Assembly: GCF_001713395.1 (NCBI RefSeq)
Contig: NZ_CP016450.1
Span: 3,836,501 to 3,900,500 of the forward strand
DNA from: Sinorhizobium sp. RAC02
Lineage (GTDB): Bacteria; Pseudomonadota; Alphaproteobacteria; Rhizobiales; Rhizobiaceae
Length of the DNA stretch: 64,000 nt
Direction of reading: 5' to 3'
Shown: piece by piece, positions 38,691-57,551 of the stretch
Numbering within the stretch: position 1 is the first letter of the stretch
Layout of the letters: every line of letters begins with the position of its first letter
The notes under the pieces: model-generated
What the model was told of the DNA's origin: nothing
What the model saw: the letters and a program-made list of their open reading frames with translations, nothing else
Databases searched by the model: none
Position numbers and translations under genes: made by a program

Positions 38691-38779
38691 AGCATTTCCG
38701 CGTTTCTTCGAATTGTGAAAACGCTCCGATTTTTTATTCTCGCGCAAAACCGCTGCGCACTTTTGCTGGAATTGCTTTA
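38689..38779. repeat. Interspersed intergenic palindromic element, copy 3 of 3
   Basis: Longest copy (about 91 bases), beginning AGAGCATTTCC and ending GCTTTA. The core GCGCAAAACCGCTGCGCACT then TTTGCTGGAATTGC matches the copies at 11554-11618 and 16944-17013. It fills the gap between two convergent genes and contributes to the stop codons of both. Confidence 0.75.
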
Positions 38780-40045: not shown

Positions 40046-40050
40046 GAGGC

Positions 40051-40368
40051 TCAGTCGTCGGTTTCGAGGTCGTAGACGAGAATGCCCGCGATGCCGCCTT
40101 CTGCGGCTGCGACCAGACGCCCACCGGTCTGCTTGTGCTCGGGATCTTCCAGATAGGCGTCGCGGGCAAAACTGTCCGCGAAATCGACGATGAAGCCGTC
40201 GCCAAACCCCTTGTCCATGCCCTCTTCCGGGCTGACATTGGTGCCGATATGCACGGCGAGCATGCCCGGGAGACGGCTCTTCAGCGCGTCGATCTCGTTG
40301 AACAGTTCGGCCTTGTAGTGGGCGGAAATGGTCGGCTTGAAGTGGATGAAGACACAATGGCGGATCAT
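40051..40368 (-). CDS. Dabb (stress-responsive A/B barrel) domain protein
   Basis: 105-residue dimeric alpha/beta-barrel protein. MIRHCVFIHFKP at the N-terminus and the C-terminal VDFADSFARDAYLEDPEHK are typical of the Dabb family. Most members have no known activity; some are small cyclases or isomerases. It lies eight bases after a GMC oxidoreductase gene and five before the glycerate kinase gene, so it probably acts in the same pathway. Confidence 0.88.
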   Translation of the reverse strand: MIRHCVFIHFKPTISAHYKAELFNEIDALKSRLPGMLAVHIGTNVSPEEGMDKGFGDGFIVDFADSFARDAYLEDPEHKQTGGRLVAAAEGGIAGILVYDLETDD

Positions 40369-40376
40369 GGTTGCCC

Positions 40377-42032
40377 CTATCGGATGTTGGCGCGGGCGCG
40401 CGGACGCGCGTCGTTGCGTTCATGTTGGAAGACCTGGGCCGGCAGCGCCGGCAGGCCGCGAATGATGTCGGCGCCCTTTTCGCCCACCATGATGGTCGGC
40501 GCATTGGTGTTGGCGGAAGGAACGCGCGGCATGACGGAACTGTCGCAGACGCGTAAACCTTCAAGCCCATGCACCTTCAAATCAAGCCCGACGACCGCAT
40601 CCGCGCCCGTGCCCATCTTGCAGGTGCCGACCGGATGGTGGTCCGTCTTGGCATTGGCGCAACCATAGTCGAACAGCTCCTCGTCGGTCATCGCCTTCGG
40701 TCCCGGCAGGCGCTCGGCCAGGACGAAGGGTTTCAGCGCTGCCTGCTGCAGGATTTCGCGGGCAATCTTCAGGCCCTCGATCGACATTTTGCGATCGTGC
40801 GGGTCTTCCCAATAATTCGGGTCGATCAGCGGTGCGGCGGAAGGATCGGCGGAGGAAAGCCGCACCGTGCCCTTCGAGCGTGGATGCAGGTAGGCGGAAT
40901 TCAGCGTCACGCCGGCATTCTTCAGCTTCTCCACGCCCGCCTCGATGCCGGAACCGAGACCGAGGTGGAACTGGATATCCGGCGAGCGGGCATCCGGATC
41001 GGCATACCAGAAGCCGCCCGTCTCGAAGAGCGAGGAGGCGACGGGGCCGGAACGGAACAGCACATATTGCAGGCCGGCCCACAGCGTACGGTGGAGTTTG
41101 GCGACGCCGTCATAGGTGTGGTCGCCGGTGCATTCGGAAATCACGAACAGGTCGAGATGGTCCTGCAGGTTGGAGCCGACGCCGGGCAGGTCGTGTTTGA
41201 CCTCTACGCCGACGGACTTCAGGTGGTCGGCCGGGCCGATGCCGGATTGCTGGAGCAGTTTCGGCGAGCCGATGGCGCCGGACGAGACCAGCACCTCGCG
41301 CTCCGCCCGGATGGTCTCGACACCCTTGCCCGTCACCACCTCGACGCCGACGGCGCGAGAACCTTCGAGCACGATGCGGGAAACACGAGCGCCGGTGCGG
41401 ATCGTCAGGTTCTTACGATCCTTGATCGGTGAGAGATAGGCGAGCGAGGCGGAGGAGCGGCGGCGGTTGCGCTGGGTCAGCTGGTAGAAGCCGACGCCGG
41501 CCTGCTGGCGACCGTTGAAATCGTGATTGTAGGGAATGCCGAGTTCCTGGCCGGCGCGGATATAGGCGTCGCAGATCGGCAGCGCCGAAACCGGCATGGA
41601 AACGCCGAGTGGCCCGCCATAGGCGTGGTAGTCGTCGGCAAAACGCTGGTTGTCCTCGGCGCGCTTGAAGTAGGGCAGGATTTCCCGGTAGCTCCACCCT
41701 TCGCAACCGTCTTCGCTGGCCCAGAGGTCGTAGTCTGCCGCGTTGCCACGGGCGTAGAGCTGGGCATTGATCGAGGACCCGCCGCCGATCACCTTGGCCT
41801 GCGTGTAGCGCAGCACGCGGCCTTTCATATGCTTCTGCGGCACGGTCTCCCAGCCCCAGCTCGCCACGCCCTTGGTCATCTTGGCAAACCCCGCCGGCAT
41901 GTGGAACAGCGGGTTCCAGTCCCCGCCGCCGGCTTCCAGCAGCAGCACGCGCACGGTGGGGTCTTCCGAGAGGCGGCTCGCCAAAACGCAGCCAGCCGGC
42001 CCTGCGCCGGTGATGATGTAGTCGTAGGTCAT
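40377..42032 (-). CDS. GMC-family FAD oxidoreductase (choline dehydrogenase-like)
   Basis: 551-residue flavoprotein. The FAD-binding N-terminus YIITGAGPAGCVLASRLSED, the GMC signature VIGGGSSINAQLYARGNAAD and the active-site His (DHHPVGTCKMG) and Asn (NTNAPT) are all present. Members oxidise alcohols, choline or sugars. Its location among sugar-transport and polyol genes argues for a sugar- or polyol-type alcohol, not choline. The start ATG at 42032 is 40 bases after the SDR gene. Confidence 0.9.
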   Translation of the reverse strand: MTYDYIITGAGPAGCVLASRLSEDPTVRVLLLEAGGGDWNPLFHMPAGFAKMTKGVASWGWETVPQKHMKGRVLRYTQAKVIGGGSSINAQLYARGNAADYDLWASEDGCEGWSYREILPYFKRAEDNQRFADDYHAYGGPLGVSMPVSALPICDAYIRAGQELGIPYNHDFNGRQQAGVGFYQLTQRNRRRSSASLAYLSPIKDRKNLTIRTGARVSRIVLEGSRAVGVEVVTGKGVETIRAEREVLVSSGAIGSPKLLQQSGIGPADHLKSVGVEVKHDLPGVGSNLQDHLDLFVISECTGDHTYDGVAKLHRTLWAGLQYVLFRSGPVASSLFETGGFWYADPDARSPDIQFHLGLGSGIEAGVEKLKNAGVTLNSAYLHPRSKGTVRLSSADPSAAPLIDPNYWEDPHDRKMSIEGLKIAREILQQAALKPFVLAERLPGPKAMTDEELFDYGCANAKTDHHPVGTCKMGTGADAVVGLDLKVHGLEGLRVCDSSVMPRVPSANTNAPTIMVGEKGADIIRGLPALPAQVFQHERNDARPRARANIR

Positions 42033-42072: not shown

Positions 42073-42852
42073 TCAAAGCCGGCCGATCGATAGCCCGCCG
42101 TCGAGATTGATCACCGAGCCGGTGGCGAAGCCGAACTTGCCGGTGGCAAGCGCGGCGGCCGCGGACCCGATATCGTCCGGTTCGCCCCAGCGCTTCATCG
42201 GCACGAGGCCGCCCGCGATCAGCGCGTCGTATTTCGCCGAAACGCCTGATGTCATGTCCGAGCGGATGATGCCGGGACGGATCTCGAAGACGGCGATGCC
42301 GGTGTCCGCCAGGCGCAGCGCGAGGCCCTGGCTGAAGGCGGCGAGCCCGGCCTTGGTCATGCAATAGTCGAGCCGTTCCGGCGAGGTGAGGCCTGCCGAG
42401 ACGGAGGTGATGTTGATGATCGTGCGCGGACCGGCCGCCTGTTTCGAATGCAGCATCGCCTTCAAAACGGCCTGGGTGAAGAACACCGTGCCGCGTAGGT
42501 TGGTGGCGACGATCGTGTCGAAATTCTCCGGCGTCAGATCGAGGAAATCGCCGCGGATGACGGAGGCGATGCCGGCATTGTTGACGAGGCAGCCGATGGC
42601 GCCGAGCTTGTCTTCGATGGCCGCGACGGTCGCCGCGTGGCCGGAAAGATCGGCAAGGTCGGCCTTCAGGTAGATCGCGCGGCTGCCTGCGGTCGCGAAT
42701 TCTGCGAGCATGGTGTCGGTTGCCGCATCGCTGTCGCCGATACCGGTGATGGCGATGTCGAAACCTTCTGTCGCAAGCGCCTTGGCAATGCCGAGGCCGA
42801 TGCCGCGGCGACCGCCGGTGACGATGGCGACGGGGCGTGCTGGTGTCGTCAT
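42073..42852 (-). CDS. SDR-family oxidoreductase
   Basis: 259-residue classical short-chain dehydrogenase/reductase. The cofactor motif TGGRRGIGLGIA, NNAG, the catalytic serine region (ITSVSAG) and the YCMTKAGL Tyr/Lys pair are intact; the C-terminus GSVINLDGG fits FabG-like members. Substrate unknown, probably a sugar or polyol intermediate given the neighbours. Its ATG overlaps the stop of the upstream GMC gene (ATGA). Confidence 0.9.
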   Translation of the reverse strand: MTTPARPVAIVTGGRRGIGLGIAKALATEGFDIAITGIGDSDAATDTMLAEFATAGSRAIYLKADLADLSGHAATVAAIEDKLGAIGCLVNNAGIASVIRGDFLDLTPENFDTIVATNLRGTVFFTQAVLKAMLHSKQAAGPRTIINITSVSAGLTSPERLDYCMTKAGLAAFSQGLALRLADTGIAVFEIRPGIIRSDMTSGVSAKYDALIAGGLVPMKRWGEPDDIGSAAAALATGKFGFATGSVINLDGGLSIGRL

Positions 42853-44357
42853 GCGGCAAGATCCCTCGATTTGATGTGGGTCGCGACGCGCAGCGCCTGG
42901 GCGGCAACACTGAGCGCCGGGTTCACCGCGGCCGAGGTCGGCAGATAGGAGGCGTCGACCACGAAGAGGTTCGGATGGTCGTAGGCGCGGCACCAGATAT
43001 CGAGTGGTGCCGTTGCCGGATCGTTGCCGATGCGCACCGTGCCGCACTGGTGCGACGGCGTGCGCTTGTCGAAGGCGCGGGCGAGCACGATCGGGAAGCC
43101 GGCCTTCTTCAGGGCGCCCTTCAGCTTGGTGACGAGGTCGAGATGGGCCTGCCAGTTGGTGCGCGTCCACTTCATGACGATCCGGTCGCGGTCGACCGTG
43201 ATTCGGCTCTCGGGATGCGGCAGGTCCTCGCTCATCGCGTAGAAATCGATGGTGTGGGCGGCAACCTGTTCCAGCAGCCATTCCGGTACGGAGGGCATGT
43301 TGGCCTTCAGGATTTTGCCGGAGACGCGGCCGAGCAGCTGGACATTGCCGAGCGGCGCGCCGCCGTTTCCGTCGGAGAGATAGTAGTCGTTGAAGCCAAA
43401 GCTCTTCTGGTAGACGGAGGTGTTCTTGTAGAAGGGCGAGACGCCGATCACGGCGCTCGAATTGTGGTTCATGAAGTTGCGGCCGACCTGGTCGGAGCTG
43501 TTGGCGAGGCCTTTCGGGAAGGCCTCCGAGGCCGAGCGGAGCAGGAGCACGGCCGATTGCACGGCGCCGGCCGAAAGGATCACCAGCTTCGGCGAGATGC
43601 TCCGGGCTTCATCGCCCTGCATATAATGCACGGTCGAAATGCTGCGGCCATGCGGCGTGGTGGCAAGCCGTGTCACCCGGCAATGGGTGCGCAGTTCGAC
43701 ATTCGGATGCTTGAGAGCCTCGGCGAGCGCCGCACTTTCTGCATCCATCTTGCCGTCATTGCTGTTCGGATGGGCATCCCAGGGCGTCTTCGCCTTGGCC
43801 AGCCAGCGGTCGATGTCGATGCCGAGCGGCAGCGAATAGGGATGCAGGCCGTTCGCCTTCATCCTGGCGCGGACCTTCGCGATGGCCTGTTCGTCCGGCA
43901 CGGGCGGGAAAGGGTAGGGCGCGGAATGGTGCGGCTCGGTCGGGTCTTCGCCGAGCGTACCGCGCACATTGAAGAGTTTTTCGGCGGCGGAATACCACGG
44001 CTCCAGCTCTTCATAGGGGAAGGGCCAGGCGGGGGAGACGCCTTCGCGATGCTTCATCTCCTCGAAGTCTTCCCTACGGTAGCGCACCAGCACCGCGCCG
44101 TAGAACTTCGAATTGCCGCCGACATTGTAGTAGTTGCCAGGGTTGAAGGCCGTGCCGTCGGCCTCGTACCACATCTCCTTCGGGCGGAAATGGCCACGCT
44201 GGAAGATCGCGCGCTGGTCGCGGTTTTCCGGGCGGTCGGGCAGGTGGTCGCCCGCCTCCAGGATGACGATCCTTGCGCCCGTCGGGGCGAGAGCGGCGGC
44301 CATGGTGGAGCCGCCGATGCCCGATCCGATGATGACGATGTCCGGCTGCGTGGTCAT
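42849..44357 (-). CDS. GMC-family oxidoreductase, second type
   Basis: 502-residue flavoprotein, clearly different from the GMC protein at 40377-42032. The FAD fold IIGSGIGGSTMAAALA, the NVGGNSKFYGAVLVRYRRED segment and the C-terminal active site (SHQCGTVRIG, SAAVNPALSVAAQA) place it in the GMC branch near sugar oxidases and gluconate-type dehydrogenases. It lies seven bases after the ABC ATPase gene and overlaps the SDR gene. Two GMC enzymes in one operon suggest two oxidations on one transported substrate. Confidence 0.85.
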   Translation of the reverse strand: MTTQPDIVIIGSGIGGSTMAAALAPTGARIVILEAGDHLPDRPENRDQRAIFQRGHFRPKEMWYEADGTAFNPGNYYNVGGNSKFYGAVLVRYRREDFEEMKHREGVSPAWPFPYEELEPWYSAAEKLFNVRGTLGEDPTEPHHSAPYPFPPVPDEQAIAKVRARMKANGLHPYSLPLGIDIDRWLAKAKTPWDAHPNSNDGKMDAESAALAEALKHPNVELRTHCRVTRLATTPHGRSISTVHYMQGDEARSISPKLVILSAGAVQSAVLLLRSASEAFPKGLANSSDQVGRNFMNHNSSAVIGVSPFYKNTSVYQKSFGFNDYYLSDGNGGAPLGNVQLLGRVSGKILKANMPSVPEWLLEQVAAHTIDFYAMSEDLPHPESRITVDRDRIVMKWTRTNWQAHLDLVTKLKGALKKAGFPIVLARAFDKRTPSHQCGTVRIGNDPATAPLDIWCRAYDHPNLFVVDASYLPTSAAVNPALSVAAQALRVATHIKSRDLAA

Positions 44358-44364: not shown

Positions 44365-45486
44365 TCAGGCGATGCGAAGCTGGTTTGCGGGGTCGAAGAA
44401 CACCGCCTTGTCGAGGTTGAAGGCGAGGCGCGCCGTCTGGCCGGGGGCGATGCGTACATCGGCCCGCAGGCGCGCGACGACCTCCTTGCCGCCGAGATGG
44501 GTGACGGCGAACGTGTCGGCGCCGGCGGGCTCCACCACTTCGATCAGGCAGTCGCCCTCGCCGATCGTGCGGGCATTGCGGTCCGCGCCATCAGGGTCCG
44601 TCAGCGCCTCCGGGCGGATGCCGAAGATCACATCCTTGCCCTTATAGGCGGCAAGTCCGCCGGGCGCGTTCGGTACCGACAGCACCAGCGGTTCGGCCTG
44701 GTGGCGGGCGAGCGAGACGGCCATGCCGGTGCCGTTCTGCTCAATCTTCGCCGAAAGCAGGTTCATGGCCGGTGAGCCCATGAAGTCGGCGACGAAGATG
44801 TTGGCGGGGTTGTTGTAGATTTCCGCCGGCGAGCCGAACTGCTGCAGCACGCCGTCCTTCAAGACGGCGATCTTGGTGGCGAGCGTCATCGCCTCGATCT
44901 GGTCGTGCGTGACGTAGACGATGGTGGTCTTCATGCGCTGGTGCAAGCGCTTGATTTCGGTGCGCATGTCGACGCGCAGCTTGGCGTCGAGGTTCGACAG
45001 TGGTTCGTCGAACAGGAAGAGTTTCGGGTCGCGCACCAGCGCCCGGCCCATGGCGACGCGCTGGCGCTGGCCGCCGGAGAGCTGGCCCGGCTTGCGATCG
45101 AGTAGATGGCCGATCTGCAGCATGTCGGCGACCTGCTTGATCGCCTTTTCCCGCTCTTCCTTCGGCACGCCGCGGATTTCCATGCCGAAGGCGATGTTTC
45201 CGCCGACCGTCATGTTCGGGTAGAGCGCGTAGGACTGGAACACCATGGCGATATCGCGCTTGGAGGGGTGCAGGCCCGCAACCGAGCGGCCGTCGATGGC
45301 GATGTCGCCCGAGGTGATCGGCTCCAGGCCGGCGATCGTGTTGAGCAGCGTGGACTTGCCGCAGCCGGAGGGGCCGACGAGCACGAGGAAGCCGCCCTGT
45401 TCGATCTCGAGATTGATGTCCTTCAGGATTTCGAGCGATCCGTAGGATTTGCGCAGGTTGCTGATCTTCAGGAAAGACATGGACAT
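44365..45486 (-). CDS. Sugar ABC transporter ATP-binding protein (MalK/UgpC type)
   Basis: 373-residue ATPase. Walker A GPSGCGKSTL, signature [16 protein letters not shown] and Walker B LFLFDEPLSNLD are followed by a C-terminal TOBE domain (about 240-370) as in MalK. The ATG at 45486 shares a base with the permease stop (TAATG) and follows AAAGGAT at good spacing; the alternative ATG at 45480 is two codons later. Confidence 0.93.
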   Translation of the reverse strand: MSMSFLKISNLRKSYGSLEILKDINLEIEQGGFLVLVGPSGCGKSTLLNTIAGLEPITSGDIAIDGRSVAGLHPSKRDIAMVFQSYALYPNMTVGGNIAFGMEIRGVPKEEREKAIKQVADMLQIGHLLDRKPGQLSGGQRQRVAMGRALVRDPKLFLFDEPLSNLDAKLRVDMRTEIKRLHQRMKTTIVYVTHDQIEAMTLATKIAVLKDGVLQQFGSPAEIYNNPANIFVADFMGSPAMNLLSAKIEQNGTGMAVSLARHQAEPLVLSVPNAPGGLAAYKGKDVIFGIRPEALTDPDGADRNARTIGEGDCLIEVVEPAGADTFAVTHLGGKEVVARLRADVRIAPGQTARLAFNLDKAVFFDPANQLRIA

Positions 45487-46367
45487 TATCCTTTCACGGC
45501 GCCGGACATCAGGCCGCGCACGAAATACCGTCCGGAGACGATGTAGACGATGAGGGTGGGGAGTGCGGCGAGGATCGCGCCCGCGAAATGCACGTTGTAT
45601 TCCTTCACGCCCGTCGAGGACTGGACGAGGTTGTTGAGCGCCACCGTCATCGGCGTCGTACCCGCGCCGGAGAAGGAGGCGCCGAACAGGAAGTCGTTCC
45701 AGATGTTGGTGAACTGCCAGATGACGGAGACGACGATGATCGGCCCGGAGGACGGCAGCAGGATGCGGTAGAAGATCTGGAAGAAGCTCGCGCCGTCGAT
45801 CTGAGCGGCACGCACCAGCTCGGTTGGGAAGTTTTCGTAGTAGTTGCGGAAATAGAGCGTCGTGAAGCCGAGGCCGTAGACAATGTGCACCAGGATCAGG
45901 CCCCAGAGCGAACCGGCCAGCCCCAGCATGCCGAGGATGCGCGCCATCGGGATCAGCACGATCTGGAACGGGATGAAGCAGGAGAGCAGCAGCAGGCCGA
46001 AGAAGACGTTCGAGCCCCTGAACTGCCACTTGGTCAGCACGTAGCCGTTCAGCGCGCCGATGATGGTGGAGATCGCCACGGCCGGCACGACCATCAGGAT
46101 CGAGTTGATGAAGAAGGGGCGAAGGCCGGTCGGCTGCACGCCGATCTGCGCCGTCGACCAGGCTTGCAGCCAGGGCTCGATCGTCCAGACCTTCGGCAGG
46201 TTCAGCATGCCGCCCTGGCGGATTTCCTCCAGCGGCTTCAGCGAATTCACCAGCATCACGTAGAGCGGCAGCAGGTAGTAGACCGCAAACAGGATGAGGG
46301 CGGTGTAGATCAGCGCACGCGTCAGCTTGTTGTGCGAGATCACGTTGTCGGGGTTTTGAGCGCTCAT
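45486..46367 (-). CDS. Sugar ABC transporter permease (MalG type)
   Basis: 293-residue inner-membrane permease with about six membrane segments. The docking loop reads ELVRAAQIDGASFFQIFYRI and the C-terminus SGRYFVRGLMSGAVKG is typical of carbohydrate importers. It overlaps the MalF-type gene by ATGA and the ATPase gene by TAATG. Confidence 0.93.
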   Translation of the reverse strand: MSAQNPDNVISHNKLTRALIYTALILFAVYYLLPLYVMLVNSLKPLEEIRQGGMLNLPKVWTIEPWLQAWSTAQIGVQPTGLRPFFINSILMVVPAVAISTIIGALNGYVLTKWQFRGSNVFFGLLLLSCFIPFQIVLIPMARILGMLGLAGSLWGLILVHIVYGLGFTTLYFRNYYENFPTELVRAAQIDGASFFQIFYRILLPSSGPIIVVSVIWQFTNIWNDFLFGASFSGAGTTPMTVALNNLVQSSTGVKEYNVHFAGAILAALPTLIVYIVSGRYFVRGLMSGAVKG

Positions 46368-47245
46368 CGGCCTTTGCCTCCGCGGATTTCGGAATAGAGG
46401 TAGGGGATGATGATCGAGAAGATCATGACCAGCATGATGATGGCCGACGAGGCGCCGATGCCCATCTGGTTGCGGGTAAACGTGTAGGAATACATGAAGG
46501 TCGCCGGCAGTTCGGTCGCCTGGCCGGGGCCGCCGCCTGTCAGCGCCACGACAAGGTCGTAGGCCTTGATGGCGAGGTGGGCGAGCACGACGAAGGCGGA
46601 CAGGAAGACCGGGCGCATCAGCGGAATGATGATGCGGCGGTAGATCGTCGAGGTCGAGGCGCCGTCGATCTGGGCCGCCTTGATGATCTCGTTGTCGACG
46701 CCGCGGAGCCCTGCGAGGAACATCGCCATGACGAAGCCGGAGGATTGCCAGACGGCGGCGATCACCACGCAGTAGATCGCGTAGTTTCGGTCCTTGATCC
46801 AGTTGAAGGAGAAGCTCTCCCAACCCCACAGGTGCATGGTGTTTTCAAGCCCGATGCCGGGGTCAAGGAACCACTTCCAGGCGGTGCCCGTCACGATGAA
46901 GGAGAGCGCCATCGGGTAGAGGTAGATCGGCCGGAGAATGCCTTCGGCGCGGATCTTCTGGTCGAGCAGGATGGCGAGCCCGAGCCCCAGCACCGAGCAG
47001 ATGACGATGTAGAGCGAGGCGAAGATCGCGAGATTCGAGATCGCCCGCCACCAGTGCGGCAGCGCCCAGAGCTTGGAATAGTTGCTGAGGCCCACGAAAT
47101 TGTAGGAGGGCAGCATCTTGCTGTCCGTCAGCGACAGGAAGCCCGTATAGGCGATGAAGCCGTAGACGAAGACGAGCACGATGAGGAAACTGGGTGCCAG
47201 CACGAGCTTCGGCAGAAGCTCCTGCAGCCGGCTTCGGCTATCCAT
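46364..47245 (-). CDS. Sugar ABC transporter permease (MalF type)
   Basis: 293-residue permease with about six membrane segments and the docking loop EIIKAAQIDGASTSTIYRRI. An in-frame GTG at 47257 would add four residues; the ATG at 47245 is preferred. A compound hairpin repeat separates it from the binding-protein gene. Confidence 0.92.
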   Translation of the reverse strand: MDSRSRLQELLPKLVLAPSFLIVLVFVYGFIAYTGFLSLTDSKMLPSYNFVGLSNYSKLWALPHWWRAISNLAIFASLYIVICSVLGLGLAILLDQKIRAEGILRPIYLYPMALSFIVTGTAWKWFLDPGIGLENTMHLWGWESFSFNWIKDRNYAIYCVVIAAVWQSSGFVMAMFLAGLRGVDNEIIKAAQIDGASTSTIYRRIIIPLMRPVFLSAFVVLAHLAIKAYDLVVALTGGGPGQATELPATFMYSYTFTRNQMGIGASSAIIMLVMIFSIIIPYLYSEIRGGKGR

Positions 47246-47288
47246 GGTCGGTACCACCGTTGAAATCGGGTTACAGGGCGGCTCGTGG

Positions 47289-47399: not shown

Positions 47400-48650
47400 T
47401 TACTTCGCGGCCTCGACGGCGGCCTTGAGTTCCGTCACGGCTTCCTCGGAGGAAAGCTCGCCGTTGAACTGGCGGGTCACGACGTCATAGATCGCGTTCT
47501 TGACCGAGGCCGGATTGGCGTGGCCGTGTGCCATGGAGCCGAACAGCGAGCCGTTGGTGTTGGCTTCTGCGAGGTCCTTGATGGCCTTCTTGCCGCAATC
47601 GTCGAAGGCTTCGTCCGAGACGTCGGTGCGGGCAGGGGCAGAGCCCTTGACCACGTTGAAGGCCGACTGGAAGGCCGGGCTTTCGATAGCGGTCGCCATT
47701 TCGAGCTGCGACGGGATCTTGGCGTCGGCAACCTTGAACATCGCGAACTGGTCGGAGTTGAAGGTGACCGAACCCTGCGTGCCCGGGAAGCGCATGCAGA
47801 CGAAGTCCGTGCCCGGCTTCTTGCCGGCCTTGATGAATTCGCCCTTCGCCCAGTCGCCCATGAACTGCACGCCGGCCTTGCCTTCGATGACCATGGCGGA
47901 AGCGAGGTTCCAGTCACGGCCCGAGAAGTTGTCGTCCACGTAGGAGCGCAGCTTCGTCATGCGGTCGAAGGCTTCCTTCATCTGGGCGCCGCCCAGCGTG
48001 TCCGGATCGAGGTCGATGAACGCCTTCTTGTAGAAGTCGTTGCCGAAGGACAGCACGACCGCGTCGAAGATCGTCGCGTCCTGCCACGGCTGGCCACCAT
48101 GGGCGACCGGCGTGATGCCCTGTTCCTTGAACTTGTCGAGGAGAGCAACAAGCTCGTCCCAGTTCGCCGGCTCCTTGCCGCCTGCCTTGTCGAGGGCTGC
48201 CTTGTTGACCCAGACCCAGTTCGTGGAGTGCACGTTGACCGGGGCTGCGATCCAGTGGCCGTCATACTTCGAGAACTGCTGGAGCGCGGTCGGGATGACC
48301 TTGTCCCAGCCTTCCTTGGCGGCGATGTCGTCGAGATTGCCGAGTGCGCCTTCCTTGGCCCAGTCGAGAATATCGAAGCCGAGCATCTGCACCGCGGTCG
48401 GCGCATTGCCGGCCGTGACGCGGGCGCGCAGCACCGTCATGGCTTCCGTGCCGCCGCCGCCGGCAACCGGCATGTCGGTCCAGGAAATGCCCTTGGCTTC
48501 CAGATCCTTCTTCAGAACGTCGAGAGCGGCGGCTTCGCCACCCGAGGTCCACCAGTGCAGAACCTCGACGCCTTCGGCTGCCTTGGCGGACATGCCGCCC
48601 ATCGTCATCATCACCGCGGCGATTGCGGTGGTTGTTAGAAACTTGCGCAT
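47400..48650 (-). CDS. Sugar ABC transporter substrate-binding protein
   Basis: 416-residue periplasmic binding protein of the carbohydrate class with a signal peptide (about residues 1-25, ending MSAKA/AE). [20 protein letters not shown] and [20 protein letters not shown] are typical of glucose/mannose-type binding proteins. The ATG at 48650 follows GGAGGAAT. It is the first gene of the nine-gene operon and lies downstream of two LacI-type operator sequences. Confidence 0.9.
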
Positions 48651-48756
48651 CGTATTCCTCCCGTTTGCAAGTTCGAGGGCGAGAGCCTCCTCCCGCCGAT
48701 TTCCCCGAGGCCCTTGAAGGCGTCGGAATTTCGTTTGCGGCTCAAAGTGCCGCGCC

Positions 48757-48900: not shown

Positions 48901-48982
48901 CTGTGCGGTGCAAGATTGCTAGAGGCGTAGCGCGTCGGTATGGTGCCGCCGATCGACGCCCGCCATCCAAAGAAACGCACCC

Positions 48983-50035
48983 GTGTCCCGCATCGAAAAG
49001 CCCGCCGACAGTGAACCCGCCCGCAGCCCGTCCCGAGCCGGCAAGCCGACGCTGAAGACGATTGCCGAAATGACGGGCCTGGCGATCACCACGGTCTCCC
49101 GTGCGCTCGGCAATGCGCCGCAGATTTCCGAAAACACCCGCCGGCGCGTGCATGAGGTCGCCGCCGAGATCGGCTACCTGCCCGACCGCGCCGCCCAGCG
49201 CCTCAAGACCGGCCGCACCAATGTCATTTCCGTGCTGCTCGATCCGCACGAGGAAATTCTGGGCTTCGGCACGTCCATCATGCATGGCCTGGCGCGCGCG
49301 CTCCAGACGACGCCCTACCATCTCATCGTCACGCCGAATTTTCTCGACGGCAGCAATGTCGATGCCGTCAACTACATCATCCGCAACGGCATGGCCGACG
49401 GCCTGATCTTTTCGCGCACCGAACCCTTCGATCCGCGCGTGCGGCTGCTGCTCGAAAACGGCTTTCCCTTCGTCACGCACGGCCGCACGGAATTTTCCAC
49501 CCCGCACGCCTTCGTCGACTACGACAATTACGCCTTCGCCTACGAGGCCACCAGGCGCCTGATCGTCAAGGGCCGGCGCAAGGTCACGATCATCCGGCCG
49601 CCGAAGCGCCTGACCTTCCACCAGCACATGCTGCACGGTTTCATGACCGCGGTGCGCGAGGCCGGTATCGCCTACGAAATTCCCGACACGCTCGATCTCG
49701 ACAGTCCGGCCGACATGATCCGCGACTATGTGCGCCGCCGCAGCGGTGAGCCTGATCCGCCGGACGGTTTCGCCTGTCCCGGGGAAGTCTCGGCACTTGC
49801 CACCATCACCGGCATGAGCGACCAGGGTTTTACCCTCGGCACGGAATACGACATCGTCGCCAAGCAGACCTCGCTGCTGCTCAGCCAGATCCAGCCCAAG
49901 GTCGAGACGATCTACGAGGACCTCAAGGCGGCCGGAGAGGCCATGGGGCAGCTGCTCTTGCAGCGCATCGCCGGCGAGCCCGTCGAGGACCTCACGATCC
50001 TGCAAAGCCCGCAGTTCGGCTTCCCGACGCCCTGA
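48983..50035 (+). CDS. LacI-family regulator of the sugar-transport operon
   Basis: 350 residues with an N-terminal helix-turn-helix (about 24-70; TLKTIAEMTGLAITTVSRAL, then ISENTRRRVHEVA) preceded by about 20 extra residues, and a periplasmic-binding-like effector domain. The start is a GTG at 48983. It is divergent from the nine-gene sugar operon and converges with the aldehyde dehydrogenase at 50083. The two AACGTT dyads in the shared gap are its likely targets. Confidence 0.88.
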   Translation: MSRIEKPADSEPARSPSRAGKPTLKTIAEMTGLAITTVSRALGNAPQISENTRRRVHEVAAEIGYLPDRAAQRLKTGRTNVISVLLDPHEEILGFGTSIMHGLARALQTTPYHLIVTPNFLDGSNVDAVNYIIRNGMADGLIFSRTEPFDPRVRLLLENGFPFVTHGRTEFSTPHAFVDYDNYAFAYEATRRLIVKGRRKVTIIRPPKRLTFHQHMLHGFMTAVREAGIAYEIPDTLDLDSPADMIRDYVRRRSGEPDPPDGFACPGEVSALATITGMSDQGFTLGTEYDIVAKQTSLLLSQIQPKVETIYEDLKAAGEAMGQLLLQRIAGEPVEDLTILQSPQFGFPTP

Positions 50036-50082
50036 GCGGGCGGCAAAGCCGATCCCATCCATGATTGTCGGGAAGGGTTTTG

Positions 50083-51588
50083 TCATCGCGGCATCCACCA
50101 GCCGGTACGCGCGCCCATATGCATGTTGAGCGTCTTGGTCTCGGTGTAGTCCTCCACCGCATGGCGACCGAGTTCGCGGCCGAGTCCGGACTGTCGGTAG
50201 CCACCGAAGGGCAGTTCGGACGCGCCGTCCATGAAAGTGTTCATCCAGACCGTGCCGGCGCGCACCTTGCGGCCGACCGTCAGGCAGGTGTCGAAGTCGC
50301 GGCTCCACACACCGGCCGACAGGCCGTAGTCGATGGCGTTGGCGATGCGGATCGCCTCTTCCGTCGTCTCGAAGGTCAGCACCGACAGCACCGGACCGAA
50401 GACTTCCTCGCGGGCGACCGTCATCTCGGGCAACACGCCGGAGAGGATGGTCGGTGCCATGAACTGGCCGAGGCCGAGATCGAGTGCGCCGCCGCCGAGT
50501 GCGACCGAAGCGCCGGCCCTGGTGGCGCCCTCAACATAGGAGCCGATCTTTTCGAGGTGCTGCGGCGTGATGATCGCGCCGACCTGGGTCGTCGGATCGA
50601 GCGGATCGCCGACCTTCACTTGTCTCGCAAGTTCGGCGATGCGGGCGGTCACGTCCGCCGCAATCGACGTGTGCAGGATCAGTCGCGAGCCGGCATTGCA
50701 GCATTCGCCCGCGTTGAAATAGGCGCCGAAGACGGCGGCGTCGATGAATTCGTCGAGGTTGGCATCGGGGAAGATGATCTGCGGGTTCTTGCCGCCGAGT
50801 TCCAGCGAGACCTTCTTCAGCGTCTGCGCGGCATTGGCCATCGTCAGGCGGCCGACGCCGGTGGATCCGGTAAACGAGATCATGTCCACGTCGGGATGTG
50901 TGGTCATCGGTGCGCCGACTTCAGGGCCGGTGCCGGTGAGGATGTTGACGACACCGGCGGGCACGCCCGCTTCGATGAGGATTTCGCCGAGCACCAGCGT
51001 CGAGCCGGAGGTGAGCTCCGAAGGCTTGACGACCGTCGTGCAGCCGGCGGCGAGCGCGAAGGGCAGCTTCTGGCTGACGATCAGGAAGGGGAAGTTCCAC
51101 GGCGTGATGATGGAGACGACGCCGATTGCCTCGCGCAGCACGACGCCGAGCGTGCCTTCGCCGAGCGTGTTGTAGCTTTCGCCGTGCAGGTCACGGGCAA
51201 GGGCTGCGGCATAGCGCCAGATATCGGCAGCACCGCCGAGTTCGCCCTTGGCCTGGCTGATCGGCTTGCCGCTCTCGATGCAGTCGAGGAAGGCCAGTTC
51301 ATCGGCGCGGGCGGCGATGAGGTCGGCGGCCTTCAGCAGGATGTTCGAGCGCTCTGCGCCCGTCATGGTCGGCCATGGACCGTCGTCGAAGGCCTTGCGG
51401 GCGGCTGCGATGGCGCGTTCGGCATCGGCCTTGGTGCCGGCCGGATAGCGGCTGACCACGATGCCGTGGCCCGGTGCCACGCGTTCGAGCACGGGGCCTG
51501 CGCCTTCCGTCCAGACGCCGTCGATCAGCATGCGGAAATCGCGTGCCTTGAAGTTTTCCAGCGCTTTCGGCTTCACATGCGCGGTCAT
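50083..51588 (-). CDS. NAD(P)-dependent aldehyde dehydrogenase
   Basis: 501-residue aldehyde dehydrogenase. SIITPWNFPFLIVSQKLPFA, SLELGGKNPQI with the catalytic Glu and FNAGECCNAGSRL with the catalytic Cys are intact. The first in-frame ATG (51594) is only one base from GGGAG, while the ATG at 51588 is seven bases away and overlaps the upstream stop (TAATG); the latter is chosen. It is the last gene of the LacI-Gfo/Idh-CoA-transferase-crotonase operon. Substrate unknown. Confidence 0.9.
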   Translation of the reverse strand: MTAHVKPKALENFKARDFRMLIDGVWTEGAGPVLERVAPGHGIVVSRYPAGTKADAERAIAAARKAFDDGPWPTMTGAERSNILLKAADLIAARADELAFLDCIESGKPISQAKGELGGAADIWRYAAALARDLHGESYNTLGEGTLGVVLREAIGVVSIITPWNFPFLIVSQKLPFALAAGCTTVVKPSELTSGSTLVLGEILIEAGVPAGVVNILTGTGPEVGAPMTTHPDVDMISFTGSTGVGRLTMANAAQTLKKVSLELGGKNPQIIFPDANLDEFIDAAVFGAYFNAGECCNAGSRLILHTSIAADVTARIAELARQVKVGDPLDPTTQVGAIITPQHLEKIGSYVEGATRAGASVALGGGALDLGLGQFMAPTILSGVLPEMTVAREEVFGPVLSVLTFETTEEAIRIANAIDYGLSAGVWSRDFDTCLTVGRKVRAGTVWMNTFMDGASELPFGGYRQSGLGRELGRHAVEDYTETKTLNMHMGARTGWWMPR

Positions 51589-52367
51589 TACCATTCTCCC
51601 TTGAACTCTGCGGGGCGCTTACCCGTGAAGGCGGCGACGCCTTCCTTCAGGTCCCCGGTCTTGGCGACGAGGATCGAGCCCAGGGCCTCCACCGCCGCAC
51701 CATTGTCTTCGCCGTTTGCTACGGCGATCATCAGTTTCGAGACTTCCGTCGCCGCAGGCCCACGGGCCGCGATGCGCGCGACATAGGCCTTTGCAGCCTC
51801 GACGGCCGTTCCCGTTTCCACAACCTGGTCGACGATGCCGAGCGTCTGCGCCTCCACGGCGGTCAGCACCTCGCCGCCGAGCAGCATGCGCCGCACGGTC
51901 TGCGCGCCAAAGCGTTTCACCAGCCGCTGGGTGCCGGACCAGCCCGGAACCATGCCGAGGCCGGCTTCCGGCAGGCCGATCTTCACCTGCGTTTCGGCGA
52001 TGCGAATGTCGGCGGCAGCCGCCAGTTCCAGCCCGCCACCGAGCGCGTGGCCGTTGACGGCGGCGATCAGCGGCATGCGCAACGTCGCCAGCCGTTCGAA
52101 CACCCGGTGGCCGAAGCGCACCCAGGCATGGCCGAATTCATTGGCTTCCATGCCGGCCCAGGCGCGGATATCGCCGCCCGCCGAAAAGGCCTTGCCTTCG
52201 CCGGTCAGGATCGCGACGCGCACGGCGGCATTCGCCTCGACCGCGTCGCAGGCAGCGGAAAGCTCCTTCAGCATGTCGATGTCGAAGGCGTTCGCCTTTT
52301 CCGGCCGCGCGACGGTGATCGTCGCGACGTAGCCTTCAATGGAGATGCGGATGCGCGGTTCAGCCAT
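51588..52367 (-). CDS. Enoyl-CoA hydratase/isomerase (crotonase) family protein
   Basis: 259-residue crotonase. The oxyanion-hole segment FSAGGDIRAW is present, and both hydratase glutamates are kept (GGGLELAAAADI and LPEAGLGMVPG), so hydratase or related lyase activity is possible. It overlaps the CoA-transferase gene by eight bases and the aldehyde dehydrogenase gene by TAATG. Substrate unknown; the neighbours imply a CoA thioester made by the CoA-transferase. Confidence 0.88.
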   Translation of the reverse strand: MAEPRIRISIEGYVATITVARPEKANAFDIDMLKELSAACDAVEANAAVRVAILTGEGKAFSAGGDIRAWAGMEANEFGHAWVRFGHRVFERLATLRMPLIAAVNGHALGGGLELAAAADIRIAETQVKIGLPEAGLGMVPGWSGTQRLVKRFGAQTVRRMLLGGEVLTAVEAQTLGIVDQVVETGTAVEAAKAYVARIAARGPAATEVSKLMIAVANGEDNGAAVEALGSILVAKTGDLKEGVAAFTGKRPAEFKGEW

Positions 52368-53973
52368 GGTGTGCTCCTGCTAGCTGGCGCGGAGCCTTCT
52401 GCGGCAGCGTCAGGCCGATCGGCGCATCGGTGAACAGCGCGGCATCCATGACCTTCAGGTCCGGCGAAACGATGAGGTCGAATTCCGACTGGTCGAGGAT
52501 GTGCGCCTGAAGATCGACGCCCGGTGCGATCTCGGTGAGCACGATACCCTCCGGCGTCAGCTTGAGCACGCAGCGCTCGGTGACATAGGTGATGTCCTGC
52601 CCCTGCGCCACGCCGCGCGGGCCGGAGAAGGTGACGTGCTCGACAGCGTTGACCAGCTTCTTGAGCTTGCCTTCCTTCTCGATCACCAGCTTGCCGCCCT
52701 CGACGGCAAGCTTGGCGCCGGCATTGAACATGCCGGAGAAGACGATCTTCTTCGCCCGTGCCGTGATGTCGACGAAGCCGCCGGCGCCTGCCGTCACATG
52801 CGGCCGGAACGAGAGCTTCGACACATTGACCGAGCCGTCCTTGCCGATTTCCAGGAAGGAAAGCAGCGAGGCATCGAAGCCCGCGCCCTGGAAATAGGTG
52901 AACTGGTAGGGCGAGGGCATGAAGGCATCGGCATTCGACGCGCAGCCGAAGGCGAAGTCGAGCAGCGGCACGCCGCCGACCGCACCCTGTTCGATCACCC
53001 AGGTGACGGTGCCGTGCAGGCCCTCTTCGAGAAGGATGCGCGGCACGTTGGCGGAAATGCCGAAGCCGAGATTGACGGCGCTGCCGGCCTGCAGTTCCTG
53101 CGCCACGCGGCGGGCGATGACCTTCTGGATGTTGAATTCCGGCACGCGGAATGTGTCGAGCGGCCGGAAGATCTCGCCTGATATCGCGGGATCGTACAGC
53201 GTCTGCGTCGTCTGCTTCTGGTCGGGATCGACCACGACGTAGTCGACCAGCATGCCGGGCACGCGCACGTCGTGCGGCTTCAGCGAGCCTTCCTTCACGA
53301 TGCGCTTGACCTGCGCAATGACGATACCGCCATTGTTGCGGGCGGCGAGCGCCTGGTCGAGGCCGCCGAGATAGGCGCCTTCGTGTTCGTAGGTCAGGTT
53401 GCCGCGTTCGTCTGCCGTCGTGGCGCGAATGATCGCCACCTGCGGTGCGATCGCCTTGAAATACAGCCATTCCTCACCGGCGAAGGTGATTTTTTCGACG
53501 ACCGGGGTCTTTGCCGCCGAAGCATTCATAGCGCAGCCTTCGCGGCTCGGATCGACGAAGGTTTCGAGGCCGACCTTGGTGATCACGCCCGGGCGCTTGG
53601 CGGCGGCCTCGCGGTGCATGTCGAAGAGAATGCCGGACGGGACGTTGTAGGCGGCGACCTCGTCGCTGCCGATCATCTGCCAGATCAGCGGCGGTTCGGA
53701 CGAGGAGGGGCCGGATGGATAGGAGCCGCCGATGATCGTCTTCAGCAGGCCTTTTTTCGCGATGTAATCCACGCCCTTGATGCCGCTCATGTCGCCGGCG
53801 GCGATCGGATGCAGCGTGGTGAGGTTCTGCGGATGACCGGTCTCGTCGAAGCGCTCGCCGATCGCCTTCAATGTCAGGTCCGGGCAACCGAGGCCGGAGG
53901 AGGAGGAGACCGAAACGACGGCGCCGTCCGGGATCAGGTCTGCGGCCTGGCGTGGCGTGATATGCTTGCTCAT
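52360..53973 (-). CDS. Family I CoA-transferase (acetate/propionate CoA-transferase type)
   Basis: 537-residue protein with fused alpha and beta CoA-transferase domains. Glu328 in VIEQGAVGGVPLLDFAFG is the expected catalytic residue, corresponding to Glu324 of propionate CoA-transferase. The enzyme would move CoA from acetyl- or succinyl-CoA to a carboxylic acid. It starts six bases after the Gfo/Idh gene and overlaps the crotonase gene. The acceptor acid is unknown. Confidence 0.9.
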   Translation of the reverse strand: MSKHITPRQAADLIPDGAVVSVSSSSGLGCPDLTLKAIGERFDETGHPQNLTTLHPIAAGDMSGIKGVDYIAKKGLLKTIIGGSYPSGPSSSEPPLIWQMIGSDEVAAYNVPSGILFDMHREAAAKRPGVITKVGLETFVDPSREGCAMNASAAKTPVVEKITFAGEEWLYFKAIAPQVAIIRATTADERGNLTYEHEGAYLGGLDQALAARNNGGIVIAQVKRIVKEGSLKPHDVRVPGMLVDYVVVDPDQKQTTQTLYDPAISGEIFRPLDTFRVPEFNIQKVIARRVAQELQAGSAVNLGFGISANVPRILLEEGLHGTVTWVIEQGAVGGVPLLDFAFGCASNADAFMPSPYQFTYFQGAGFDASLLSFLEIGKDGSVNVSKLSFRPHVTAGAGGFVDITARAKKIVFSGMFNAGAKLAVEGGKLVIEKEGKLKKLVNAVEHVTFSGPRGVAQGQDITYVTERCVLKLTPEGIVLTEIAPGVDLQAHILDQSEFDLIVSPDLKVMDAALFTDAPIGLTLPQKAPRQLAGAHHG

Positions 53974-53979
53974 GGTCTT

Positions 53980-56024
<2,045 letters not shown>

Positions 56025-56076
56025 GATCAGTCCTCCCTGTGCGAGCTGCAATGTGCTCGCTTGTTGGATGTAGTTA

Positions 56077-56095
56077 ATTGGATCGTTCCAAATTT
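56077..56095. promoter_or_regulatory. LacI-type operator near the regulator start
   Basis: ATTGGATCGTTCCAAATTT, a near-palindrome around GGATCGTTCC. Read on the other strand it matches the site at 56334-56354 over AAATTTGGAACGATC. It is 53 bases upstream of the LacI start, suited to autoregulation. Confidence 0.6.
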
Positions 56096-56333
56096 GTCAA
56101 GTGCGTTTGATGAAGATTGAAGGCATATGTCGGCCCGGTCTTCTGGCCAGGCCGCTTTCTCTCCGCCTGTCCTGGTGAGCTTCTTTTGGCCAATCCAAAC
56201 CCAGGCATAGCCTGATTTGAGGTTGGTGCGCCGAGATGGGCAGGGCGGAGGAGGGGTGGTGGCAGTTTCCTGCCCTGTCATTGCATCAGGGACGGCCTGC
56301 CACCAATCAGAGTACTTCAAAAAATCGCACTTG

Positions 56334-56354
56334 AAATTTGGAACGATCTAAATT
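56334..56354. promoter_or_regulatory. LacI-type operator near the DUF993 start
   Basis: AAATTTGGAACGATCTAAA lies about 30 bases before the DUF993 ATG. It is the inverted partner of the site at 56077-56095. Between the two sites (56096-56333) I see no gene; one short - strand frame there overlaps both the operator and the LacI leader and is not credible. Confidence 0.6.
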
Positions 56355-56384
56355 ATTGCCCTGAGAAACCCTTGGGAGGATTTC

Positions 56385-57551
56385 ATGCCGATCAACCTTT
56401 CCCTGCCGCGTGCCGATGGTGGCGTCGAAGCCTACGCTCTCGTGGGAACGCCCACGGCGCGTCCCGCCGGCGTGCCCGTCTTCAGCCGTATCGCCTATGC
56501 CGCGGCCCATGTGGTATCGGACCCGCGTCGCGATACGCGCCCCTGGGAGGCGCCGGCCGTCGATTGGGACGCCACCATGGCCTTCCGCCATCATCTCTGG
56601 TCGCTCGGCTTCCGCATCGCCGAGGCGATGGATACGGCACAGCGCGGCATGGGGCTCGATTGGGCCGGCGCGCAGGAGTTGATCCGCCGGTCGCTGGCGG
56701 ACGCTAGAACGGTGCCGGATGCTGACCTCGCCTGCGGCGCCGGCACGGATCACCTGAACCCGGCCGATGCCCGCTCGCTGGACGATGTGATCGCGGCCTA
56801 TGAGGAACAGGTCGGCTTTGTCGAAAAGCATGGCGGCCGCGCGATCATGATGGCCAGCCGCGCGCTTGCCCGTCTCGCCAAATCGCCGGACGATTACCGC
56901 AAGGTCTATGGCCGCATCCTCGGCCAGGCGAAGGACAAGGTCGTGCTGCACTGGCTCGGCGACATGTTCGATCCGCAGCTGAAGGGTTATTGGGGCTCGG
57001 ACAGTTTCGAGCCGGCGCTCGATGCGGTGCTGTCGATCATCGACGAAAATCGCAACAAGGTCGAAGGCATCAAGATTTCGCTTCTCGAAAACGCCAAGGA
57101 AGTGGCGCTGCGCGATCGCCTGCCGGAAGGCGTGCTGTGTTTTACCGGTGACGATTTCAACTATGCCGAACTGATCGAGGGCGATGGGCGCAAATACAGC
57201 CATGCGCTGCTCGGCATCTTCGATGCGGTGGCGCCCCAGGCCTCTAAGGCGCTGGCTTCGCTGGCCACCGGCGACGTTGCGACGTTCCGCTCGGTCATCG
57301 AGCCGACCGTGCCGCTGTCGCGCAAGATCTTCGAAGCGCCGACGCAGTATTACAAGGCGGGCGTCGTCTTCCTTGCTTGGCTGAACGGCCATCAGGACCA
57401 CTTCACCATGCCGGCCGGCATGCAGTCCGCGCGCGGCGTGCTGCATTATGCCGATGTCTTCCGCCTCGCCGACCAGGCAAATGTGCTCGACAAGCCGGAT
57501 CTGGCCGCAGAGCGCATGAAAAGCCTGATGACCGTGCTCGGGGTGCGTTGA
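56385..57551 (+). CDS. DUF993 protein, dihydrodipicolinate-synthase-like aldolase fold
   Basis: 388-residue protein of the DUF993 family, annotated elsewhere as dihydrodipicolinate synthase family. RIAYAAAHVVSDPRRDTRPW near the N-terminus and HWLGDMFDPQLKGYWGSD are family features. Lys230 in VEGIKISLL is placed like the Schiff-base lysine of dihydrodipicolinate synthase (I-K-x-S), which suggests class I aldolase or lyase chemistry on a 2-oxo acid. The ATG follows GGGAGGA. It is divergent from a LacI-Gfo/Idh-CoA-transferase operon. Substrate unknown. Confidence 0.82.
   Translation: MPINLSLPRADGGVEAYALVGTPTARPAGVPVFSRIAYAAAHVVSDPRRDTRPWEAPAVDWDATMAFRHHLWSLGFRIAEAMDTAQRGMGLDWAGAQELIRRSLADARTVPDADLACGAGTDHLNPADARSLDDVIAAYEEQVGFVEKHGGRAIMMASRALARLAKSPDDYRKVYGRILGQAKDKVVLHWLGDMFDPQLKGYWGSDSFEPALDAVLSIIDENRNKVEGIKISLLENAKEVALRDRLPEGVLCFTGDDFNYAELIEGDGRKYSHALLGIFDAVAPQASKALASLATGDVATFRSVIEPTVPLSRKIFEAPTQYYKAGVVFLAWLNGHQDHFTMPAGMQSARGVLHYADVFRLADQANVLDKPDLAAERMKSLMTVLGVR

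Follow-up and report, generated by a model that had tools for sequence, protein, structure and literature searches.

A conserved gene cluster in rhizobia-like soil bacteria that probably breaks down 1,5-anhydro sugars by a route of which we found no description

The 1,5-anhydro sugars are cyclic, stable compounds related to glucose and mannose. According to portions of a 2025 review (PMC12441222), Rhizobiaceae metabolise 1,5-anhydro-D-fructose (AF) through 1,5-anhydro-D-mannitol (AM), and in S. morelense, where an AF reductase converts AF into AM (Kuehn et al. 2006, cited therein), a P450-like enzyme, as yet unidentified, then turns AM into mannose by hydroxylating C1. The same portions describe anaerobic pathways through the 6-phosphates of 1,5-anhydro-D-glucitol (AG) and AM (YbiW and PflD; Ma et al. 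2024), which depend on PTS phosphorylation and oxygen-sensitive glycyl-radical enzymes, and state that an oxidative route for AG is not yet described. They further note that, in two inherited neutropenias, a bacterial lowering of intestinal anhydroglucitol would need an aerobically working enzyme.

The locus considered here lies in a window of 64,000 nt (the whole stretch that was analysed) from Sinorhizobium sp. RAC02 (NZ_CP016450.1, positions 3,836,501 to 3,900,500, forward strand), in which a cluster of about 16 genes spans positions 38777 to 57551. A preliminary description had taken six genes at one end for the whole system; their coordinates and families are borne out, but a minus-strand continuation beyond the aldehyde dehydrogenase gene, down to 38777, had been missed. 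Read from 38777, the order is glycerate kinase, Dabb protein, GMC oxidoreductase, SDR, second GMC oxidoreductase, a MalK/MalG/MalF/binding-protein importer, a second LacI regulator and then the six reported genes. A plasmid of Peteryoungia has 15 counterparts of the cluster genes, rearranged onto one strand. The features are as follows (percentages are identities).

38777..40054, minus strand: GlyK, predicted glycerate 2-kinase (DUF4147 plus MOFRL; PF13660 and PF05161)
40051..40368, minus strand: Dabb, small alpha/beta-barrel protein (PF07876; 46.5% to the Peteryoungia Dabb)
40377..42032, minus strand: GMCa, choline-dehydrogenase-like GMC oxidoreductase (family matches, run without the first 23 residues)
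42073..42837, minus strand: SDR oxidoreductase, FabG-like (PF13561; NF009386 above its cut-off; 48% to Peteryoungia)
42849..44357, minus strand: GMCb, GMC-type FAD oxidoreductase (best PDB match a glucose dehydrogenase; 58% to Peteryoungia)
44365..45495, minus strand: MalK-type ABC ATPase (PF00005, OB_MalK)
45486..46376, minus strand: MalG-type permease (PF00528)
46364..47257, minus strand: MalF-type permease (PF00528)
47400..48653, minus strand: sugar-binding protein of the importer (PF01547; ORF taken from 48758)
48983..50035, plus strand: LacIB, second regulator of the LacI type, transcribed away from the importer (PF00356; palindrome AAAACGTTTT at 48886, in the gap between the two)
50083..51588, minus strand: ALDH, aldehyde dehydrogenase (PF00171)
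51588..52367, minus strand: ECH, crotonase (PF00378; best PDB match 5zai, 3-hydroxypropionyl-CoA dehydratase)
52360..53973, minus strand: CoAT, family I CoA-transferase, YdiF-like (PF01144; PDB YdiF 2ahu, E 3.3e-111)
53980..54981, minus strand: Gfo/Idh protein, predicted 1,5-anhydro-D-fructose reductase orthologue (2glx and 4koa, full length)
54978..56051, minus strand: LacIA, LacI regulator of both divergent units (PF00356/PF00532; conserved operator pair adjoins)
56078..56091, no strand: predicted Operator 1, TTGGATCGTTCCAA, upstream of LacI, matching Operator 2
56338..56351, no strand: predicted Operator 2, TTGGAACGATCTAA, upstream of DUF993, matching Operator 1
56385..57551, plus strand: DUF993, TIM barrel resembling class I aldolases (K230 on strand beta-6, H189 on beta-5)

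Compared with the S. morelense route, as far as those portions of the review give it, the cluster has in common an orthologous reductase, a host among the Rhizobiaceae and the conversion of AF into AM, but it has no P450 and carries instead acid-forming, CoA, crotonase and aldolase-like proteins; no member of the P450 family was found among the 16 cluster proteins scanned, and the two P450 loci of the genome both lie outside the cluster. The anaerobic YbiW and PflD pathways probably concern the same substrate class, and neither a glycyl-radical enzyme nor a PTS was found among these 16 proteins. The non-phosphorylative Entner–Doudoroff branch employs 2-keto-3-deoxygluconate aldolase, glyceraldehyde dehydrogenase and glycerate 2-kinase, and the cluster likewise pairs an aldolase candidate of DHDPS fold with a glycerate-kinase-family protein, but its upstream chemistry differs and its DUF993 protein is devoid of the tyrosine and GTTGE motif considered below. 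L-Sorbose is oxidised to 2-keto-L-gulonate by sorbose and sorbosone dehydrogenases, to which a GMC and ALDH pair of the cluster is related, and to our knowledge this pathway involves no CoA-transferase, crotonase, DUF993 or AF reductase. The DUF993 clusters of S. meliloti pSymA and of Paracoccus share GMCa, ALDH, CoAT, crotonase, GlyK, SDR and DUF993 with the window (36–69% identity between window and pSymA proteins), whereas AF reductase and GMCb are not annotated in the stretches inspected, which carry instead aldo/keto reductases, an acyl-CoA dehydrogenase with ETF, a sugar isomerase and a different sugar ABC importer. The pAO1 sugar cluster of Paenarthrobacter nicotinovorans, which the literature calls a xylose cluster, brings together Gfo, DUF993, ALDH, GMC and glycerate kinase as the window does, but without annotated CoA-transferase and crotonase. 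As had been supposed, no described route with this gene set was found in the literature searched.

The cluster is almost certainly one catabolic unit, its importer, both LacI regulators, specific operator pair, AF-reductase orthologue, DHDPS-fold DUF993 protein, crotonase, CoA-transferase and glycerate-kinase-family protein being inherited as a set. The four junctions reported earlier are all read from the sequence: an ATGA overlap between LacI and Gfo, a 6-base gap between Gfo and CoAT, an 8-base overlap between CoAT and crotonase (52360-52367) and TAATG between crotonase and ALDH. Eighty related loci were fetched, five of them too short, and among the 75 that extend 9 kb or more upstream of DUF993, 70 hold all five minus-strand genes in unchanged order and strand (LacI 74/75, Gfo 71/75, CoAT 75/75, crotonase 74/75, ALDH 74/75). 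A co-regulated unit, as proposed in the preliminary description, that is conserved across Rhizobiales is supported. Its matched operators between LacI and DUF993 are real as well. Within the window alone (11-base core, one mismatch tolerated, 100 shuffles), they are not beyond chance: 1.26 matches were expected and two found, both of them perfect, and 37 of the 100 shuffles also reached two. The case for them rests on conservation. Two operators (at most two mismatches) occur in all 74 LacI–DUF993 intergenic regions examined, which are 134 to 498 bases long, and the exact pattern TTGGAWCGWTCYAA has exactly two sites, both upstream of DUF993 at a distance of at most 0.7 kb, in 20/20 same-genus genomes. 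The window's own genome has three, the third lying about 100–145 bases before an orphan binding protein, while the reversed pattern has no match in the same 21 genomes (the 20 plus our own). With such a pair of operators, the regulon is simple to verify.

The Gfo/Idh protein had been given the first, oxidising step on a polyol not further specified, a role that our results do not support. By its sequence it is an orthologue of AF reductase, an enzyme characterised as a reductase: its two closest PDB relatives, one characterised and one named, are 2glx (E 3.4e-170, 568.6 bits) and 4koa (E 6.2e-170, 567.7 bits), the third match falling to 121.5 bits, and its best paralogue in the genome reaches 30%. 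Residues K94, D176 and H180, which we take to be catalytic, and S33 and R38, presumably its NADPH site, are all present (EKP 93-95, DITVH 176-180, STNAER 33-38). Three Mesorhizobium genomes lack the gene although the remainder of the cluster is retained in them.

Among the oxidising enzymes, ALDH is closest, of the characterised structures, to L-sorbosone dehydrogenase 7w5l (E 1.6e-160, 538 bits); the uncharacterised 3u4j scores above it (547 bits) and the next differently named structure reaches 402. GMCa, 69% identical to its Peteryoungia counterpart, lies 13–15 kb from DUF993 on one contig in 21/21 genomes of the genus (own included). By inferred numbering, SMc04390 would be its S. meliloti counterpart, and part of one publication names SMc04390-04392 L-sorbose dehydrogenase, SDR and dehydrogenase (PMC12542648), an order that matches GMCa-SDR-GMCb. 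GMCb shows weak matches to pyranose oxidase, and the best PDB match of Dabb is 3bb5, those to olivetolic acid cyclase being weak (E 0.13–0.61). The importer's binding protein is 75% identical to that of Peteryoungia and 51% to the orphan binding protein, and smc04396, a sugar-transport gene given as dextrin-induced in an excerpt of the S. meliloti literature, would be its counterpart, again by inferred numbering.

The CoA-transferase and crotonase are present as reported, and the crotonase has both hydratase glutamates, E114 and E134, aligned with glutamates of 5zai, 5z7r and 2pbp; in the Octadecabacter cluster, a MaoC gene is present and crotonase is not annotated. The earlier reading of DUF993 as an aldolase is in keeping with its fold, a TIM barrel of the DHDPS/NAL class I aldolase superfamily (which includes KDG aldolases), and with K230 (strand 226-232), which aligns with the Schiff-base lysine of GVKDATG (E 4.7e-4, probability 33%) and is conserved in no fewer than 98% of 145 DUF993 sequences. 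In that alignment, H189 fills the beta-5 column of the catalytic tyrosine of pyruvate-type class I aldolases, and the carboxylate-binding GTTGE string occurs nowhere in the protein, its place being taken by 83-DTAQR-87 with the middle threonine retained (the alignment starts at residue 91 and was extended by hand without gaps). 2-Keto-3-deoxygluconate may therefore not be the substrate of DUF993, a domain named in none of the papers of a full-text library of 5.39 million. Against the glycerate 2-kinase models of NCBIfam, GlyK stays below the equivalog cut-offs, with 238 bits where 550 are required and 163 where 670 are; it is 62% identical to its counterpart in the pSymA cluster and 48% to that of Peteryoungia; glycerate kinase occurs in the window's cluster and in five other CoA-type clusters, Peteryoungia's among them, and was not seen in one further CoA-type cluster inspected.

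We consider it rather likely that the cluster imports and aerobically degrades 1,5-anhydrohexitols, namely AF, AM and probably AG, as suggested by the full-length orthology to AF reductase with the expected residues and by the reported dextrin induction of smc04396 and the use of AF through AM in Rhizobiaceae. That this substrate class and an acid–CoA–aldolase logic hold jointly is more tentative, somewhat short of an even chance, and the following route with CoA-assisted ring opening is doubtful. GMCb would oxidise AG at C2 to AF, which the reductase would turn into AM with net inversion of C2; if AG skipped this inversion, L-glyceraldehyde would result, and this would account for the oxidation–reduction pair. 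GMCa and ALDH would turn the exocyclic C6 alcohol, equivalent to C1 of L-sorbopyranose, into an acid, CoAT would make the thioester, and the crotonase would take off H5 and the C4 hydroxyl to leave an enol ether, after which water at C5 would yield a hemiketal and the ring would open. From AM, the product (derived by hand) would be 2-keto-3-deoxy-D-gluconate, which DUF993 would cleave into pyruvate and D-glyceraldehyde, the latter being converted to glycerate and phosphorylated by GlyK. The mechanism in full, i.e., a cyclic ether opened via a C6 acid, a CoA thioester, crotonase elimination, enol-ether hydration and DUF993 cleavage of a 2-keto-3-deoxy acid, with C2 first inverted by GMC oxidase and AF reductase to give D-glyceraldehyde and CoA returned by the CoA-transferase, would be previously undescribed and is, in our view, rather unlikely to hold as a whole. 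If true, it would give DUF993 a function; the cluster names the genes to test for an oxidative AG route and for the enzyme acting after AM.

The wide margin by which ALDH is nearest to L-sorbosone dehydrogenase among characterised structures, the names of SMc04390-04392, the crotonase glutamates, the Octadecabacter MaoC, the fold and K230 of DUF993, the glycerate kinase of the clusters, the Peteryoungia gene set and the third operator at the orphan binding protein all speak for the anhydrohexitol route. It is weakened by the water needed at C5, since ordinary crotonases add water at the beta carbon, by the missing tyrosine and GTTGE of DUF993 and the one CoA-type cluster in which no glycerate kinase was seen, and by SDR and Dabb, neither of which is used in any step. 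The three reductase-free Mesorhizobium clusters and the class-level DUF993 regions with another Gfo group also count against it, as does the C1 hydroxylation of AM by a P450-like enzyme given in portions of the review, which would bypass most of the cluster. If that published scheme from AF through AM to mannose holds, the reductase alone would serve AF and the remaining operon would degrade another plant polyol or glycoside. The account of S. morelense in the review, the P450 loci elsewhere in the genome and the dispensable reductase of the Mesorhizobium genomes agree with this, but the reductase gene overlaps LacIA (ATGA), lies 6 bases from CoAT and keeps its position in 71/75 loci; we hold this reading to be unlikely, though the likeliest alternative.

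L-Sorbose or a related ketohexose, the next in rank and improbable, would be turned by GMCa and ALDH into 2-keto-L-gulonate via sorbosone, the 2-keto group reduced by the AF-reductase homologue, the aldonate dehydrated by CoA-transferase and crotonase, and the product cleaved by DUF993. The kinship of ALDH and the L-sorbose dehydrogenase annotation of the inferred S. meliloti counterpart of GMCa favour it, against the orthology of the reductase to AF reductase, the lack of a role for GMCb and the fact that the dehydration of linear aldonates does not normally involve CoA. Least probable is the order of the preliminary description, in which Gfo oxidises a polyol, DUF993 splits the product, and of the two fragments the aldehyde is oxidised by ALDH while the acid passes through CoA chemistry to central metabolism. 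DUF993 does have an aldolase fold, and in 18 of the 20 class-level regions a Gfo protein is encoded on its strand no more than 4 kb away, but these partners, which stand with an isomerase, best match another Gfo group and only 1/20 regions has CoA-pathway genes near DUF993, while the Gfo of the window is a reductase orthologue by all appearances. ALDH resembles L-sorbosone dehydrogenase and GMCa the protein annotated as L-sorbose dehydrogenase, which fits better with an acid that arises from the exocyclic CH2OH ahead of cleavage than with CoA steps on an acid released by DUF993, and the glycerate kinase points to glyceraldehyde as the product of cleavage.

The six genes of the preliminary description (LacIA, Gfo/Idh, CoA-transferase, crotonase and aldehyde dehydrogenase, or ALDH, on the minus strand, and the divergent DUF993) have the positions and families given there, and its ATGA junction, 6-base gap and 8-base overlap were read again in the sequence; for the ALDH the likeliest start is 51588, hence the TAATG junction. 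They are not the whole system, since the minus-strand run goes on to 38777. Past the importer genes, this strand carries genes for GMCb, an SDR, GMCa, a Dabb protein and a glycerate-kinase-family protein (GlyK), with gaps of at most 40 bases or small overlaps from GMCb to GlyK, and GMCa and DUF993 lie 13 to 15 kb apart on the same contig in all 21 genomes of the genus, the window's own being one of them. On a Peteryoungia plasmid, counterparts of 15 of the 16 genes (LacIB being the missing one), 39 to 75% identical to the window proteins, are all on a single strand, arranged as Gfo, CoA-transferase, crotonase, ALDH, binding protein, permeases, ATPase, GMCb, SDR, GMCa, Dabb, DUF993, LacI, GlyK; the same gene set in another arrangement is good evidence for one pathway. 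The unit is a real, conserved and specifically regulated catabolic one, about two and a half times as large as initially described.

Conservation was studied in a translated search of species genomes, of which the best 80 loci were taken among a larger number (DUF993 67 to 96% identical), and gene order was counted in the 75 of these with at least 9 kb upstream. All five minus-strand genes keep their order at 70 of the 75 loci, each single gene being present in 71 to 75 of them. One locus (L080) is devoid of crotonase, LacIA and Gfo, a 64% identical Gfo being found elsewhere in that genome, and another (L046) has no ALDH. Moreover, three Mesorhizobium loci (L056, L057, L060) keep the cluster without the gene for the reductase of 1,5-anhydro-D-fructose (AF), and no close copy was found elsewhere in these three genomes (best match 27–28%).

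The matched operators also stood up: the divergent LacI–DUF993 gap holds two copies of the imperfect palindrome TTGGAWCGWTCYAA. Their weight comes from conservation across relatives and not from the window, where the 11-base core was found twice against 1.26 expected, which is not beyond chance. The pair (at most two mismatches per site) occurs in all 74 intergenic regions examined, the gap being 134 to 498 bases long. The exact pattern was searched for in 20 same-genus genomes, and each of the 20 has it just twice, both times less than 0.7 kb upstream of DUF993. A reversed control pattern gave no match in 21 genomes of the genus and, among 20 other relatives, two matches in one genome; another of these relatives has a single true operator match without a DUF993 match. 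Three further features were noted.

G000:C3:1799166-1799179 (positions 9967-9980 of L154, a region of the RAC02 genome), third exact LacIA operator pattern, from an exact-pattern search of the genome
L154:8555-9868, minus strand, orphan sugar-binding protein gene, 51% identical to the binding protein of the cluster
Window 48983-50035, divergent from the importer, LacIB, a second LacI regulator

The third operator precedes the orphan gene by about 100 to 145 bases, and no such third exact match was found in the 20 same-genus genomes searched. The divergent gap between LacIB and the importer contains the palindrome AAAACGTTTT at window 48886; in several relatives LacIB is missing, and the binding-protein gene of the importer comes there after the ALDH, on the same strand.

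A protein search with DUF993 listed at least 8000 relatives. Of 385 genomes sampled from the class, the window's own among them, 35 carry DUF993, at 36 places in all. In 20 regions from these places, the same-strand neighbours within 4 kb include an isomerase-like gene (20/20), Gfo (18/20), an enolase-type gene (12/20) and CoA-pathway genes (1/20), the Gfo and isomerase labels being fewer when the regions are restricted to non-overlapping ORFs; a constant pairing of DUF993 with CoA enzymes is therefore rejected. In all 18 of the fetched regions L111–L128, Gfo/Idh, DUF993 and a sugar-isomerase-like protein form a cassette, to which an enolase-superfamily protein and genes for Tct or ABC transporters are often added. 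A second type of DUF993 cluster, seen in S. meliloti pSymA (L142, L146) and in L138/L147, L140 and L143/L148, comprises GMCa, ALDH, CoA-transferase, crotonase, SDR, a sugar isomerase, two aldo/keto reductases, an acyl-CoA dehydrogenase with ETF and, mostly, a glycerate kinase (none seen in L143/L148). Finally, the pAO1 plasmid of Paenarthrobacter nicotinovorans (L133, 5756-12373) groups genes for GMC, ALDH, Gfo, DUF993 and glycerate kinase; this cluster, labelled a xylose pathway in the literature, may be related to the window's pathway instead of serving plain xylose breakdown.

In a DUF993 tree of 62 rows from 145 sequences, thinned mainly in the window's type, that type forms one clade (96/99), the pSymA type another with Octadecabacter and one Paraburkholderia cluster (100/99), and 33 of the remaining rows a third (99/95). 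These groups largely follow gene context, with exceptions: the match is weakened by Nonomuraea (L145), which has Gfo and isomerase and branches with pAO1, by Peteryoungia and Roseibium, placed outside the window's clade, and by the weak branch joining the deep groups. Clusters of the CoA type occur in the window's clade, the pSymA clade and Peteryoungia. Given both the CoA-type and the isomerase/Gfo contexts, DUF993 looks like an aldolase-type module serving different front ends. KDG aldolase was rejected as a firm label, two defining motifs being unmatched.

For Gfo/Idh, inositol dehydrogenase was rejected, as the best NCBIfam model, inositol 2-dehydrogenase, scores 154 bits where its cut-off is 355; compared with structures, the protein reaches 568 bits with AF reductase versus 87.5 for the best listed inositol 2-dehydrogenase. 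AF made by the bacterium itself through alpha-1,4-glucan lyase was discarded, as the genome has no GH31 match. The route that best explains the cluster would give a step to most of its enzymes, the SDR and the Dabb protein falling outside that assignment. Its strongest parts are the substrate class (anhydrohexitols), which the reductase suggests with moderate support, and the oxidation of the exocyclic CH2OH, to which GMCa and ALDH point; its weakest concern how the ring would be opened and which compound DUF993 acts on. According to Fischer projections drawn by hand, 1,5-anhydro-D-mannitol (AM), not 1,5-anhydro-D-glucitol, would yield a D-erythro 2-keto-3-deoxy acid and hence D-glyceraldehyde.

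If right, this route is new. According to passages of a 2025 review (PMC12441222), AF is reduced to AM in Rhizobiaceae and a P450-like enzyme, still to be identified, then yields mannose; for 1,5-anhydroglucitol, the review knows of no described oxidative pathway analogous to this. In excerpts of other studies, smc04396 is dextrin-induced (2016, PMC4960864), and a 2025 table (PMC12542648) gives SMc04390-04392 names fitting GMCa, SDR and GMCb, these three forming with SMc04132, 04133, 04135, 04138 and 04139 one module that is lower in a phaR mutant (PMC12542648). Judging from the order of SMc04390-92, smc04396 and SMc04401, the S. meliloti counterparts would be numbered SMc04389-04401. Presumably, SMc04400 is the reductase and SMc04389 a glycerate kinase. 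Anhydro sugars are absent from the main text of the LacI regulon paper, and literature searches reaching few subscription journals found neither a published description of the cluster nor, in full text, any paper naming DUF993.

Outside the cluster, window 58364-59350 encodes a protein of 328 residues without a match in Pfam or NCBIfam, and its gene adjoins that of a uracil-DNA glycosylase, in a few relatives too.
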